A stretch of 64,000 nucleotides of DNA from Pelotomaculum schinkii (GTDB taxonomy: Bacteria; Bacillota; Desulfotomaculia; Desulfotomaculales; Pelotomaculaceae): assembly GCF_004369205.1 (NCBI RefSeq), contig NZ_QFGA01000001.1, forward strand, positions 124,001 to 188,000, in the 5' to 3' direction. Positions 12,251-62,948 of this stretch are shown one piece after another. Numbering within the stretch: position 1 is the first letter of the stretch; the number at the start of each line of letters is the position of its first letter. The notes under the pieces are model-generated. The model did no database searches. It was not told where the DNA came from and saw only the letters and a list, made by a program, of their open reading frames with translations. The position numbers were made by a program, and so were the translations under genes.

Positions 12251-15200
12251 TTATTTAACCTGAATCAACGTAATGTCGTCAAAGTAATAGGTGCCGGTGC
12301 TGCCGGCGTCAACGGAGGGATAAATCCTTACGTAGGCGGTAGCGGCCGGTACGGTTATGGTCATTTCGGGCATGGCCTCCCACCCGCTGCCGGTATTATT
12401 GAACTTAAAGGCGTAAGGGACCGTATAGGTGCCGTCCTGTTTGAAGAACTGGACTACGACTCTGGCGCTCATATTTGCCGTGCCTTTTTTAGCTTTCATG
12501 TTAAGCTTGTAGGTACCCGGTTGTAAATTCAGCTTCTGGTAAAAACCCCAGCTGTAATTGTTGGAAACATACTTGTTGCCGTTTGCTTCAGTGTTGATTG
12601 CCGCTGTGTTTGTTTCATTGGCCCAGCCCTGCAGGCCCGAACTGAAATCGCCGTTTGTGATGAGATTGGCCTGGTTGTTTACAGTATTGTTTACAACACA
12701 GGAAACGGCAGCCGATGTGGATGAATTGCCGGCTGCGTCTTTAGCGGTAGCCCGCACATAATAGGTCCCGTTATTAATATTGGAAACGTCCCAGGCAAGC
12801 TGCCAGGCGCCGGATGTTTTCGTGCCGTCCTGCAGGGCGGCCGCCCCAATGCTTGTCCAAGTGCCGTTTACATCAGCAGTATAAGCAAAGGTTACGGACT
12901 CAACTCCCTGGTTGTCACCGGCTGAGGCTGTTAAAATCGCTTTATCCTTTAATGTGATACCGGCAGCCGGCGCGGTTACGGTCACCTGGGGAGATTCTGT
13001 ATCAGGCGCCGGTGCTGGTGTAACGCCGGCCGGGACCAGAGAAACGTCGTCAAAGTAATAGGTGCCGTTGCTGCCGGCGTCGACGGAAGGATAAATCCTT
13101 ACGTAGGCGGTTGCGTCCGGCACGGTTATGGTCATTTCAGGCATGGCTTCCCAACCGCCGCCTGTGTTATTGAACTTGAAGGCGTAAGGGACCGTATAGG
13201 TGCCGTCCTGTTTGAAGAACTGGACTACTATTCTGGTGCTCATATTTGCCGTGCCTTTTTTCGCTTTCATATTCAGCTTATAGGTGTCCGGCTGTAAAAT
13301 CAGTTTCTGGTAAAAACCCCAGCTGTAACTGTTGGAAACATACTTGTTGCCGTTTGCTTCAGTGTTGATTAACGCTGTGTTTGTTTCATTGGCCCAGCCT
13401 TGCAGGCCCGAACTGAAATCGCCGTTGGTGATGAGATTAGCCTGGTTGTTTACAGTATTGCTTACAATACAGGAAACGGCAGTTGATGCGGATGAATTGC
13501 CGGCTGCGTCTTTAGCGGTAGCCCGCACATAATAGGTACCGTTATTTATATTGGAAACGTCCCAGGCAAGCTGCCAGGCGCCGGACGTTTTCGTGCCGTC
13601 CTGCAGGGCGGCCGCCCCAATGCTTGTCCAACTGCCGTTTACATCAGCGGCATAAGCAAAGGTTACTGACTCAACTCCCTGGTTGTCACCGGCTGAGGCT
13701 GTTAAAACCGCGGTATCCTTTAATGTGACACCGGCAGCCGGCGCGGTTACAGTCACCTGGGGAGATTCTGTATCAGGCGCCGGTGCGGGCGTAGAACCGG
13801 CCGGGACCAGAGAAATGTCGTCAAAGTAATAGGTGCCGGTGCTGCCGGCGTCAACGGAGGGATAAATCCTTACGTAGGCGGTTGTGGACGGTACGGTAAT
13901 GGTCATTTCAGGCATGGCTTCCCACCCGCTGCCGTTGTTATTAAACTTGAAGGCGTAAGGGACCGTATATGTGCCGTCCTGTTTGAAGAACTGAACTACG
14001 ACCCTGGCGCTCATATTTGCCGTGCCTTTTTTTGCTTTCATATTCAGCTTGTAGTCGCCCGGTTGCAAATTCAGTTTCTGGTAAAAACCCCAGCTGCAAT
14101 TGTTGGAAACATACTTATTGCCGTTCGATTCAGTGTTGATTACCGCTGTGCTTGTTTCATTGGCCCAGCCTTGCAGGCCCGAGCTGAAATCGCCGTTGGT
14201 GATGAGATTGTCAGTCTGTCCGGGTATTGGCGTCGGATCAGAATTTTGGCCGCCTTGCGCAACTGTGTAGTTCAACAGGGCCAAACCGGCAAAAACCATA
14301 TCGTGTACCGATGTTTGGTTTGCAAGGATACTCCAGGACGTGTCGATTAGAGATGGCGCCCAGGGCGCAAACCATAGCCATTGTGCGATAGTGCCCGGTA
14401 AAGGTGACGTGCCGCTGCCATCAAGGCGGTGAGCGATTGATCCATTGCTTTTTACCATTATTTTTGTGGCTGTATTGGCGAACCTTTGCATGTCGGTGTC
14501 GCTAAAAAGGCCATGTTTGTATGCATAATTGATAAATTCCAGTTCGGGAACGACATGGCCTGTGTCTTCATAAACGCTGCCGTAATCAGCGCTGTCAGGG
14601 AAGTATTTCCAGGTGTAGGCATTCAAGGCAGTGTTTAAGATGAGATATTTTTTGAAGTAATTTGTTATTTTAGTGGCTTTATCGAGGTAGGTCTTGTCCC
14701 CTGTGGCTTCATAAATAGCAAACATGACGCTGCCTTGGGCCAAATTCATGTTAATAGGCAAGTTTAAATGCATCGTAGCGCTATCTTCAATCCACTTTGA
14801 ATTGGTATCCAGGTATTTGGGCTGATCCCTCATGTCATGGACCTTGACGGCATCCTTGGCAGCCTGCAAATATACATCCGCCTTGGCTTTATACTTTGAC
14901 AGAGCCGGGTCATTGTACACCATGGCGGCAAATTCAGCCATGGGCTGGACGGTTACTCCCGTTTGTACCGCATAAAGCCAATAACTCTGATAATTGGTAA
15001 AAGAACCATTGCGCCAGGCGGGTAAACTCAAGCCGCGGTAATCGGTTACTTTCCGTATATTATCACGGCGATTTAACTGGCTATCTATATGTCCGGTAAA
15101 CAAATTCAGGTAGCTTTCATCTTTAGTAGCTTTGTACATTATTAAATAAGCTCTTGTGACGTAACTTTCTTCCCAGGTGGGATAATTATTATCCACTTGG

Positions 15201-15445: not shown

Positions 15446-15641
15446 GAAGCAAGGGGACGGTTCTTTTGCTTCCCTGAAAATAGCCGTATAGCTGTTCAGC
15501 TCGCAGAGTGAATCCCCAAAAGGTGCGAATTCAGCAACATTGGCTGCCACTAGTCTGGCGCCGGCGCGTCGTGTGTGATTAAAATCGCGCCTGTATCACT
15601 TGGGTTTTTTTTTATGATGCGATACCTAGAGGCGTGTGTAA
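15446..15641. repeat. Composite intergenic repeat, copy 1 (hairpin plus type I core)
   Basis: Fills most of the 283-base gap upstream of the secreted protein gene. It opens with a hairpin, GAAGCAA at 15446-15452 pairing with TTGCTTC at 15466-15472, around GGGGACGGTTCT. A short element of the GGTGCGAATTC family follows (15520-15596), then a T run and GGCGTGTGT. Much of the stretch aligns with 43627-43841 in the same order. No coding potential is seen. Confidence 0.8.
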
Positions 15642-17009: not shown

Positions 17010-18059
17010 TTGCCGATAGATAAGTCAATAGAATTAGTAAAATTTGGTATTATTGGCTGTGGCGCAATTGCACAGCGTTACATGGATGTTTTTGAAAACT
17101 TGAAATTAGCTAAGGTAATTGCTGTAGCAGATATTGATTTTAATAAAACAGCTGCGTGGTCAAAAAAAATAAAGTGTCAAGCTTTTGCGGATTATAGACA
17201 CCTTTTAGAAAATAAAAATATTGATGTAATTATCATTGCAACACCGAGCGGACTACATGCTCAAATAGCTATTGAAGCCCTTCATGCAGGAAAGCACGTT
17301 GTTGTGGAAAAACCAATGGCAATGACGTTGGAGCAGGCTGATGCTATGATTGAGGCGGCAAAGCGTGCAAATCTTATTTTGAGCACAATGTTAAATAAAC
17401 GCTATTTGCCCGCGTGTGTTTTGTTAAAACGAATTGTCGAGCAAGGTGTCCTGGGGCGGTTATTATCTGGAAGTGTCAGTTTATATTGGTATCGTCCTCA
17501 AGAATATTATGATGAAAGCGGATGGCGTGGAACAATATCTATGGATGGCGGTGTTTTAATGAATCAGGCCATACATCATATAGACCTTTTACTTTGGTAC
17601 ATGGGAAATGTTAAGAAGGTACATGCTTATCGCGCTACCTTGGGGCACAACATTGAAGCTGAAGATACGGCGGTGGCAATACTTGAATTTGAAGACAATG
17701 CGCTTGGTACAATTAATGCTTCAACCTGCTCCTATCCCAAAAATATGGAAGAAACATTGACTATTATAGGTGAAAAAGGAAGTATTATATTGGGCGGCAG
17801 CGATTTGAATAATTTTCGTTTATGGCATATGGCTGGCGCTACAATACAAAGCGCTTTAAATTCAATTAATAAACTCAATATTCCAAAGTGGTATGGACAT
17901 TATAAAGCAATTGAAGCTGTCAGTTTAGCAATCATTGATGGAAAAGAAGGTACGATTAAGAACTTAGACGGTAAACCGGCCCTTGAGCTGGTTCTTAAAA
18001 TATATAGTGGCAGTAATATCACGAAGCCTGAAATAGGCCGTAAAGAAAGTTTGGAATAA
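17010..18059 (+). CDS. Gfo/Idh/MocA family sugar dehydrogenase (WbpB/WlbA-like)
   Basis: TTG start with AGGAGG upstream. The N-terminus has a Rossmann motif, FGIIGCGAIAQRYM, then IIIATPSGLHAQIAIEALHAGKHVVVEKPMAM with the conserved EKP lysine, and a C-terminal substrate domain with GGVLMNQAIHHIDLLLWY. Family members oxidise sugar hydroxyls using NAD(P). Followed directly by a hexapeptide acetyltransferase and a DegT aminotransferase, it fits the WbpB-WbpD-WbpE order that builds a 3-acetamido group on UDP-GlcNAcA. The UDP-GlcNAc 6-dehydrogenase of that pathway is not in the window, so the substrate is inferred. Confidence 0.88.
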   Translation: MPIDKSIELVKFGIIGCGAIAQRYMDVFENLKLAKVIAVADIDFNKTAAWSKKIKCQAFADYRHLLENKNIDVIIIATPSGLHAQIAIEALHAGKHVVVEKPMAMTLEQADAMIEAAKRANLILSTMLNKRYLPACVLLKRIVEQGVLGRLLSGSVSLYWYRPQEYYDESGWRGTISMDGGVLMNQAIHHIDLLLWYMGNVKKVHAYRATLGHNIEAEDTAVAILEFEDNALGTINASTCSYPKNMEETLTIIGEKGSIILGGSDLNNFRLWHMAGATIQSALNSINKLNIPKWYGHYKAIEAVSLAIIDGKEGTIKNLDGKPALELVLKIYSGSNITKPEIGRKESLE

Positions 18060-30396: not shown

Positions 30397-30470
30397 CGAA
30401 TAATGCAAACCGCCAATTCATAATGATCAACGGCTAACCTGAAAATGCACACAGGGCGCATCCCCAAAAA

Positions 30471-32368: not shown

Positions 32369-32430
32369 TATGGGTGCGAATTCAATTGACAGATTATATA
32401 GCTGTATGAATTTGTCCGCAATTGACCCCA
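32369..32430. repeat. GGTGCGAATTC-family element, partial
   Basis: TATGGGTGCGAATTCAATTG matches the left end of the family. The other side has only a decayed counterpart (TGAATTTGTCCGCAATTG). Lies between aroK and pilD. Confidence 0.55.
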
Positions 32431-33277: not shown

Positions 33278-33297
33278 ATGTGGGTGCGAATTCATTC
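33278..33297. repeat. Solo end of the GGTGCGAATTC family
   Basis: AATGTGGGTGCGAATTCATT is a single left end with no core or partner end. It lies just before the terminator of pilD. Confidence 0.5.
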
Positions 33298-33298
33298 A

Positions 33299-33328
33299 CC
33301 CAACTCAATTGTGATTGATTGGGTTTTT
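33299..33328 (+). terminator. Rho-independent terminator after pilD
   Basis: CCCAA-c-TCAAT, loop TGTG, ATTGA-TTGGG, then TTTTT. The stem is 10 bp with one bulge. It suggests pilB has its own promoter. Confidence 0.75.
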
Positions 33329-35145: not shown

Positions 35146-35303
35146 GACAATCATATTGCTAACTCGGTGCAGTAGAAGATGAAAACCAGCAATGTGCGAT
35201 TTTGATCGCATATGGCACATTAGTACTAACTTGGTTGGTACCTAATGTTGCATATGGGGAATAAATTCGTAGCTGCATTTTTTCAGATTAGGGGGTTATT
35301 CAA
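35146..35303. other. Intergenic region with two imperfect hairpins
   Basis: AATGTGC...GCACATT (about 35191-35221) and TAGTAC...GTACCTA (about 35221-35244) can pair. Neither has a T tract. No gene is seen. Confidence 0.35.
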
Positions 35304-35730: not shown

Positions 35731-35757
35731 ATTCCAAAATATATATAAACCTTCCAC

Positions 35758-35840
35758 CGAAAACAGCAAACCTGTCGAAAGGCGGGGACGCAAAACCATG
35801 GGTCTGAGGCCGCTAGGCTACGACTGTCAGGTTGCTGAAG
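35758..35840 (+). ncRNA. Cyclic di-GMP-I (GEMM) riboswitch
   Basis: CAGCAAACC opens the aptamer and GGTTGCTG closes P1. P2 has the GAAA tetraloop (TGTCGAAAGGCGGGG), then the invariant GGACGCAAAACC linker, and P3 (ATGGGTCTGAGGCCGCTAGG) with its receptor region. These are the conserved blocks of the class I cyclic di-GMP aptamer. A downstream hairpin AAGGCCC-TTTTT-GGGCCTT (about 35882-35901) may belong to the expression platform, though it lacks a clear T tail. It stands in front of pilC and the pilin genes, so cyclic di-GMP probably sets pilus expression, as reported for a pilin operon of Clostridioides difficile. Confidence 0.9.
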
Positions 35841-43867: not shown

Positions 43868-43983
43868 CCCCAAAATATTGTTTTGGAATTCATACGTAGA
43901 TGAAAATGCAGTATATGTAAGGAAGATTCGTATAAACCTCTTAAACTGCTCCACAGCGTGTTTAAATCGCCCGCATTGCGCTG
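43868..43983. repeat. Decayed type II repeat copy
   Basis: GGAATTCAT, then CTCTTAAACTGCTCC and CCGCATTGCG, recall the type II copy at 30471-30570 in the same orientation, but the terminal ends are lost. Together with the composite copy it accounts for most of the 472-base gap between pilO and the next gene. Confidence 0.35.
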
Positions 43984-46121: not shown

Positions 46122-46142
46122 CAGCAGAGAATTATAATCAGG

Positions 46143-46233
46143 ATGTAGGTGCGATTTCAATTGCACAACGGCGCGTCAGCGCCGGACTTGGGCATCTCAA
46201 GTAACTTTTGTGCGAATAAATTCGCACCTACAT
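46143..46233. repeat. GGTGCGAATTC-family element, type I core, intact
   Basis: 91 bp with a perfect 12-bp terminal inverted repeat, ATGTAGGTGCGA and TCGCACCTACAT. Left hairpin GTGCGAT-TTCA-ATTGCAC; right hairpin GTGCGAA-TAAA-TTCGCAC. The core has GGCGCGTCAGCGCCGGACTTG. It is the clearest type I copy. Confidence 0.9.
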
Positions 46234-46324
46234 TTGAGCAACATTGTAGCGGCCCAGGATGCCTAGTAAAAGGTTTTGCATATAACGGTTTGACCAGGGC
46301 AACAATATCAATGAGGTGATTCTC

Positions 46325-51564: not shown

Positions 51565-51909
51565 AATAAACTCACCTCAATCTCTGATAATAATGCTTTC
51601 TCTCACCGCACGGGCAAACATCGCCACTTACTTTAAATTACGACCAATGTCCTACGCTCTACGACGAATTCATCCTGCGAAATTATCAACACAGGCTATT
51701 TCGTCAACTATGCGCCGGCCAGTCCTAAACGTTTGTATATCCTATATTATGGTATACCCTAGAAGTTTCTTTGGTGTGCGCCAAAGGCAAATGGCAAAAG
51801 ATACATTATCATACGGACAAGGCAATCTCATGGAATATCTTACCGGCTTGTACAATATTTATAGAGTAGTTACCCACGCTGCTATCGCGTCGCCACGCAG
51901 CATGAAAAT
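51565..51909. other. Leader region of the spoIIIA operon, no gene seen
   Basis: About 345 AT-rich bases before the repeat at 51910. An open frame runs in from upstream but reads as non-coding and has no ribosome site. A mother-cell (SigE) promoter is expected somewhere here, but I see no convincing -10/-35 pair. TATATTATGGTATA (near 51732) is weakly palindromic. Confidence 0.4.
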
Positions 51910-56012: not shown

Positions 56013-56088
56013 GACACCCATGCTGCTGTTACGGCGCCAGCAGAGATGAAAATATGCGTCCACATTGTTATGATCAAAGCGGGTTTTC

Positions 56089-56188
56089 ATGTGGGTGCGA
56101 TTTTCAATCGCACTTGCACTGCGAAGCAGTTTAAGGGATTTATACTGTATTTCTTCAGGGTCTTGTGCGAATGAATTCGCACCTGCAT
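56089..56188. repeat. GGTGCGAATTC-family element, type II core, inside the spoIIIA operon
   Basis: 100 bp. Ends ATGTGGGTGCGA and TTCGCACCTGCAT; left hairpin GTGCGATT-TTC-AATCGCAC, right hairpin GTGCGAA-TGAA-TTCGCAC. The core GCACTGCGAAGCAGTTTAAG is the reverse complement of that at 30471-30570. It lies between spoIIIAF and spoIIIAG. Confidence 0.9.
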
Positions 56189-56248
56189 CAAGATAAATTT
56201 AGCTGTTTTTTAAATTAATTTGCGCCCATGATGTGAGGAGGTGAGAGC

Positions 56249-62758: not shown

Positions 62759-62858
62759 GACACGCCGGCGTATGATTGGCAACCTGACCAGGGCAACACA
62801 CCAACGATGCCGGGACTTCTACCTTAGCTTGTCTTTTGCAAGTTAGACCATCTTGACG

Positions 62859-62948
62859 ATGCAGGTGCGATTTCAATCGCACACGGTGCGTTAGAGCCGC
62901 ACTTGGACAGCTAATGTAACTTTTGTGCGAATGAATTCGCACCTACAT
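62859..62948. repeat. GGTGCGAATTC-family element, type I core, intact
   Basis: 90 bp. Ends ATGCAGGTGCGA and TCGCACCTACAT; left hairpin GTGCGAT-TTCA-ATCGCAC, right hairpin GTGCGAA-TGAA-TTCGCAC; core ACGGTGCGTTAGAGCCGCACTT. Fills part of the 328-base gap between nusB and xseA; the rest of the gap shows no gene. Confidence 0.9.

Follow-up and report, generated by a model that had tools for sequence, protein, structure and literature searches.

GTAG-REP dimers (REPINs) in the genome of Pelotomaculum schinkii and the probable loss of their RAYT

The repeats described here, from a window of 64,000 nucleotides (the whole stretch of DNA analysed) of the Pelotomaculum schinkii genome, are head-to-head heterodimers of GTAG REPs, i.e. 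REPINs, and probably represent a population once spread by a short RAYT and now orphaned and ageing in this genome. The units would be non-autonomous mobile elements of about 91-110 bp, with two GTAG REP hairpins facing each other across a spacer, and would often be carried together with a one-sided extra hairpin module (about 150 bp, BIME-like). Wherever the DNA becomes single-stranded, e.g. in the lagging-strand template, each REP would fold; a short RAYT (TnpA-REP, an HUH enzyme with one tyrosine and some 150 residues) would then recognise the hairpin with its GTAG, and by cutting and rejoining would copy the unit into intergenic DNA without target duplication.

The unit at positions 46143-46233 starts with ATGTAGGTGCGATTTCAATTGCAC and finishes with GTGCGAATAAATTCGCACCTACAT, and each of its ends is a REP, in which a 7-bp hairpin has a GTAG tag at its base; the pair faces inwards across a spacer that holds a third, GC-rich hairpin. 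As single-stranded DNA the two inverted REPs close into one long hairpin, the arrangement that defines a REPIN (-29.6 kcal/mol, z -7.85, with 0 of 200 shuffles as good). The REP of the family reads GTAGGTGCGAATTCATTCGCAC, with natural variants that include a GCAG tag and a broken stem, and because the arms differ at the tip (ATTTCAAT versus AATTCATT) the dimers are heterodimers. A covariance model, R1, places eight dimers in the window, namely all seven that a preliminary description of this DNA had listed and one that it had not, with E-values of 1e-25 to 1e-7 except for the copy at 30466, which has a different spacer and reaches only 0.0028. The copies, the parts of the first of them and two single REPs are as follows.

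46143-46233 (+): REPIN copy with spacer type A and perfect 12-bp inverted ends, the one first described; R1 112.0 bits at 46138-46238
46145-46166 (+): left REP of the 46143 copy, with GTAG tag at 46145-46148 and hairpin GTGCGATTTCAATTGCAC at 46149-46166
46169-46184 (+): GC-rich spacer hairpin of the 46143 copy, CGGCGC-GTCA-GCGCCG (helix 2), paired in 94.4% of cells over 84 copies
46210-46231 (-): right REP of the 46143 copy, with hairpin at 46210-46227 and tag CTAC at 46228-46231; reads GTAGGTGCGAATTTATTCGCAC
15524-15601 (-): degenerate REPIN copy, REP on the GGTGCGAATTC side truncated; R1 40.6 bits
30466-30574 (-): REPIN copy with spacer type B; R1 23.0 bits
35183-35283 (+): degenerate REPIN copy, the one not listed before; R1 42.0 bits
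43702-43801 (-): REPIN copy with extra modules on both sides; R1 88.2 bits
51905-51993 (+): REPIN copy, left REP reduced to GTGCGCAC; R1 73.8 bits
51866-51909 (+): left extension module of the 51905 copy, with GTAG at 51866-51869, running from GTAGTTACCCACGC to ATGAAAATA
56084-56193 (+): REPIN copy with spacer type B; R1 41.1 bits
62854-62953 (+): REPIN copy, type A; R1 108.1 bits
32373-32391 (+): single REP remnant, noted earlier at 32369
33283-33302 (+): single REP remnant, noted earlier at 33278

Two spacer types occur in the window, CGGCGC..GCGCCG-ACTTG (46143, 51905 and 62854) and another common to 30466 and 56084. The perfect 12-bp ends at 46143 had been read correctly, and the copies do have both ends and a core in common. 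The left hairpin quoted for the family, GTGCGAT-TTCA-ATCGCAC, exists at 62859, but the left arm at 46143 ends in ATTGCAC and contains one G-T pair, and the right-hand loop there is TAAA-like instead of the TGAA quoted. Among three suspected partial copies, those at 32369 and 33278 are single REPs, whereas the third, at 43868, is weakly similar by eye.

Among 100 copies sampled across the genome, the left tag is GTAG in 45, GCAG in 24, GTGG in 11, GCGG in 2 and some other sequence in 18, and the right tag is GTAG in 38, GCAG in 38, GTGG in 5 and other in 19; the left end thus carries the G[TC][AG]G tag of GTAG REPs in 82/100 copies and the right end GTAG, GCAG or GTGG in 81/100. By its published description, the head-to-head GTAG REP dimer (Di Nocera et al. 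2013, PMC3733652) is alike in its GTAG/GYRG tag, 7-bp stem and short loop, and also in having its tags outside, heterodimeric arms, conserved types of structured spacer and a mostly intergenic position. The REPINs of Pseudomonas fluorescens SBW25, as described by Bertels and Rainey (2011, PMC3116915), are likewise extragenic, inverted REP doublets that form one long hairpin, with single REPs as their remnants. The initial suggestion of a REP/BIME-type family is therefore supported, with the GTAG-tagged REP superfamily, in its REPIN (head-to-head dimer) form, as the closer place; the accompanying remark that no named family was known gives way to the named kind GTAG-REP/REPIN of these two papers.

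The repeat family is real and beyond chance. R1, which was built from 29 copies, gives at least 146 matches at E<=0.01 and at least 135 at E<=0.001 in the 4.44 Mb genome, and so finds the further copies that the preliminary description had proposed to look for; these are lower bounds, since 150 of 1709 candidates were scored, and the E-values are rough. A DNA search of the genome returned at least 42 matches at E<=1e-3 (40 of 162 candidates scored), and the 22-base REP with at most one mismatch has 35+39 genomic occurrences, compared with 0 for the same word read backwards. The 100-copy sample was drawn from 194 R1 rows (maximum E 0.01, 91 sources) and represents about 100 of 146 places, better-scoring ones first, so that very old copies are under-represented. 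Omitted from it were opposite-strand matches of the same palindrome, the double-fetched L001, L014, L297:3833 and L020:151, and weaker extra matches (L022:1679, L021:824, L275:673, L310:1358, L274:247, L004:506 and 532, L291:2334). Nearest-neighbour identity in this sample has a median of 0.85 and a maximum of 0.931, no pair being more than 93.1% identical.

High copy number and extragenic position, as in GTAG REPs, are both evident. With genes taken as ORF calls rather than annotations, the midpoint lies outside ORFs of at least 120 aa in 85/100 copies, against 619 of 4467 random points (14%) in the same loci; the statement that all copies lie between genes holds for most of them, but 15/100 midpoints fall inside an ORF call. 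Strong hairpins in mostly intergenic positions would also suit an RNA element selected by the host, such as a terminator or mRNA 3' stabiliser, dispersed by recombination and only convergently REP-like, and RNA roles of this kind have been proposed for REPs (PMC3733652). This explanation is nevertheless very improbable. Gene orientation around the 100 copies (8 convergent, 5 divergent, 70 unidirectional, 17 not classed) shows no visible bias relative to all neighbouring ORF pairs (26 convergent, 16 divergent, 179 unidirectional), so that convergent pairs are not visibly enriched; moreover, the units are present or absent as blocks, and the identical REP word stands beside RAYTs in far phyla. 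A role acquired after insertion may remain for the copies. In an Rfam scan of the window at the gathering threshold no family matched the repeats; the sole match was a c-di-GMP-I riboswitch (RF01051, 75.2 bits) at 35755-35839 (+).

A left module of about 53 bp, which starts with GTAGTT and forms a hairpin of its own, stands upstream in 67 of the 99 copies used for module counts and downstream in 5/99, which makes many units BIME-like mosaics about 150 bp long; a right-hand module accompanies 13/99 copies, and is found on the other side in 1. Near-tandem pairs of REPINs about 175-185 bp apart were seen at two places in this genome (C5 33499-33774 and C1 1813085-1813349). The left stem is broken at two pairs in 44/84 and 39/84 copies, i.e. 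about half. The seventh base pair of the hairpins does differ between the two arms in a fixed manner, as had been pointed out, but its interpretation as a compensatory change is weak, there being no clear covariation: within the genome (84 of the 100 copies used for pair counting) 5 pairs changed on both sides, a count at least equalled in 19/500 shuffles, and an RNAalifold fold of 29 copies has 21 pairs, none of them changed on both sides. When genomes are compared, both sides of the stems do change. In G019, a genome of a related genus in the same family, two of three copies examined (from 16 R1 matches) carry GTTCGAT..ATCGAAC and the third is imperfect, and the REPs beside the RAYT gene of that genome (see below) carry GTGCGGA..TCCGCAC.

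Two genomes of the same genus, G001 and G002, are partly colinear with the window, the colinear segments of G002 being 85-95% identical to it, and provide the empty sites that had been called for, at three window copies. The 51905 unit is absent along with its left module at a clean site in G001, which also lacks the 62854 unit (about 140 bases); in G002, the 56084 unit is absent (about 145-150 bases missing from about 56064), and no single REP is seen at the site aligned with 32369. Counterparts exist in G002 at 15524, 33278, 35183, 43702, 51905 and 62854, some of them strongly diverged (as at 35183) or rebuilt, and the 30466 site is occupied there by a repeat with another core. The 46143 site is rearranged or gapped in both relatives (rearranged at 46138 in G002). 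Two runs of N in G002 (L344, about 12956-13055 and 17194-17295), each bordered by duplications of 17-18 bp, have the appearance of assembly gaps and not of insertions. The segments missing at the empty sites (about 130-150 bp) exceed the REPIN in length and so leave the precise extent of the mobile unit undefined. The relative may also have lost the segment by deletion, especially at 62854, given that G002 has the copy and that neighbouring bases are gone as well. With these reservations on unit ends and deletion, the presence/absence pattern is that of a unit moving without target duplication, as in REPINs. Inverted ends, a multi-copy and mostly intergenic distribution and a length of about 91-150 bp might also be expected of a DDE-transposon MITE family, i.e. 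internal deletion derivatives with terminal inverted repeats, an alternative raised in the preliminary description. We regard it as extremely improbable, given that each end is itself a GTAG-tagged hairpin, that no target-site duplication was seen at any of the three empty sites (51905 and 62854 in G001, 56084 in G002), and that the same ends flank RAYT genes elsewhere.

Searches of this genome with the Y1-transposase and NF047646 profiles found no short RAYT. Six Y1-transposase matches were obtained: four IS200-size genes, which score 144-151 bits with the IS200 model, a fragment and a RAYT-like gene. The latter (C4, about 206.7-207.5 kb, L035) encodes 262 aa with a C-terminal HTH-like region, scores 86 bits with NF047646 (cut-off 80), and is flanked by 34-bp TIRs of the GGGACGGTTC type, as in the RAYT-like genes with long TIRs termed TIRYT/TIRtrons in PMC3733652; these TIRs are unrelated to the REPs studied here. 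Being flanked by TIRs it was rejected as a REPtron, as was C204 of G002, where a TIR lies between gene and REPIN; the match of G001 C72 to the RAYT model is a broken remnant with 1 stop, assigned by eye to the long type. In the window, TIR-like palindromic hairpins (..GGGACGGTTCTTTTGCTTCC..) stand right next to REPIN copies at 15454 and 43635, and the GGGACGGTTCTTTTGCTTCC motif also forms the TIRs of long RAYT-like genes in the family.

The REPINs could have been mobilised in trans by this resident long TIRYT protein instead of by a lost short RAYT. The protein is the product of the only RAYT-like gene found in the genome, the gene has REPINs on both sides at distances of about 2.1 kb (upstream) and 0.9 kb (downstream), another gene of this sort in G002 is preceded by a REPIN at about 200 bp, and the density of TIR-core motifs is somewhat higher around REPINs (7 in 55 kb versus 11 in 220 kb). 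We nevertheless consider mobilisation by this protein unlikely: long RAYT-like genes were flanked by unrelated TIRs in 8/8 cases examined for TIRs (20 regions fetched), R1 matched around only 2/10 RAYT-like loci of REPIN-bearing relatives, one of them weakly, and the long subclasses with a C-terminal domain, in which the 262-aa protein is placed by judgement on its length and HTH-like end, are described in a published classification (PMC6006769) as not REP-associated.

A short RAYT of the kind that would spread REPINs is encoded in G019. Its 149-aa RAYT (NF047646 141.6 bits, cut-off 80; PDB neighbour 4er8, TnpA-REP) is flanked by GTAG REPs near-identical to those studied here, GTAGGTGCGGATTTATCCGCAC and GTAGGTCCGGATTCATCCGGAC, which depart from them by paired stem changes and whose spacers differ from the REPIN spacers of this genome. 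The contig also carries the end of a Gram-positive type addA gene (390.8 bits, aligned to the final part of the model), which argues against proteobacterial contamination. A REP-flanked tyrosine transposase, anticipated in the preliminary description, thus exists in a related genus but not in the genome under study. Across 25 genomes of the family (own included), 22 have some NF047646 match and only G019 exceeds 100 bits; in eight of the 25 (own included), some of them incomplete, REPINs were matched and the search yielded no short RAYT, an absence that is weak evidence where genomes are incomplete (64-100% for several). Published models treat REPINs as populations of sequences that are copied by a domesticated RAYT with mainly vertical inheritance (PMC8049555), and in SBW25 particular RAYTs of the same genome are linked to the REPIN groups, whose 16-bp ends are invariant (PMC3116915); this genome differs from SBW25 in that a short RAYT was not found and that its copies, as noted above, lack closely similar pairs. 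Since a short RAYT is absent here and present in G019, and young copies are lacking, we infer that a RAYT once worked in this lineage and was then lost, leaving orphan, ageing REPINs. Against the favoured explanation stand, among other points already given, the absence of any RAYT-REP link in the own genome and the unconvincing covariation among its copies.

An exact copy of the 25-base right end stands in at least 120 stretches of a species-genome collection, chiefly from beta- and gammaproteobacteria; most of these carriers are MAGs, whose titles may err. The others are Desulfobacteraceae, one MAG titled Edaphobacter (Acidobacteria), two Pelotomaculum records and one Desulfotomaculaceae MAG. 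Four of the at least 120 stretches encode a close relative of the G019 RAYT (46-57% identity), three of them beside the REP. In a betaproteobacterial MAG (L038), an intact 150-aa RAYT (NF047646 143.4 bits), 57% identical to that of G019, lies between seven exact REP copies, 2 on one side and 5 on the other, so that a short RAYT flanked by REPs, i.e. a REPtron, is present in both G019 and L038. A gammaproteobacterial locus (L051) has an exact REP about 57 bp from the start of a RAYT reading frame cut by the locus edge, one side being seen, and in L061 a short RAYT stands 1.1 kb from the REP. The RAYT gene of a gammaproteobacterial MAG (L147, 4735-5199 (-)) is surrounded by three exact REPs and was rejected as an intact REPtron on account of its three stops; its loss leaves the standing of the favoured reading unchanged, because L038 and G019 carry the argument. 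These arrangements, including the one-sided L051 and the broken L147, resemble the RAYT/TnpA-REP REPtrons described by Nunvar et al. (2010, PMC2817692) and Corneloup et al. (2021, PMC8266576); no REPtron was found in the present genome, whose repeat population is the largest. The G019 RAYT is 50% identical to another proteobacterial RAYT and 24% to the long RAYT-like protein of this genome; among the matches listed for 113 genomes of the class, none of the others exceeds 31% identity.

We infer from this an exchange of the REP/RAYT pair between Proteobacteria and this Firmicute family, by one or more transfers and in either direction; a RAYT transfer with Pseudomonas-like REPs has been described for Thauera (PMC2817692). 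The fuller scenario, in which a complete pair crossed from Proteobacteria into one Firmicute family, spread to well over 100 REPINs and then lost its enzyme in most hosts, is put forward tentatively. The host here is a Firmicute, and the main text of PMC3733652 names no Firmicutes, Pelotomaculum or Desulfotomaculum. The literature listings searched contained no report of REP repeats with Pelotomaculum or of RAYT and REPIN in Firmicutes, nor were such repeats noticed in a Firmicute; the kind is thus known, and the host group, the orphan state and the cross-phylum identity seem new as far as this literature goes. What makes the case interesting is that a REP/RAYT pair has apparently spread between phyla and that the partner is missing here: with a 22-base REP common to several phyla and a cognate-type RAYT found in 1/25 genomes from one family of Firmicutes, related genomes allow a direct comparison of how RAYTs are transferred and lost and how REPINs decay. 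If the transfer-then-loss reading is true, dated orphan REPIN populations would provide a natural test of REPIN persistence without RAYT.

R1 matches 10/60 genomes (own included), of which nine belong to the same family and the remaining one gives a single weak match. If up to one mismatch is allowed, the REP word is present in 8/113 genomes of the class, with 74 occurrences in this genome.
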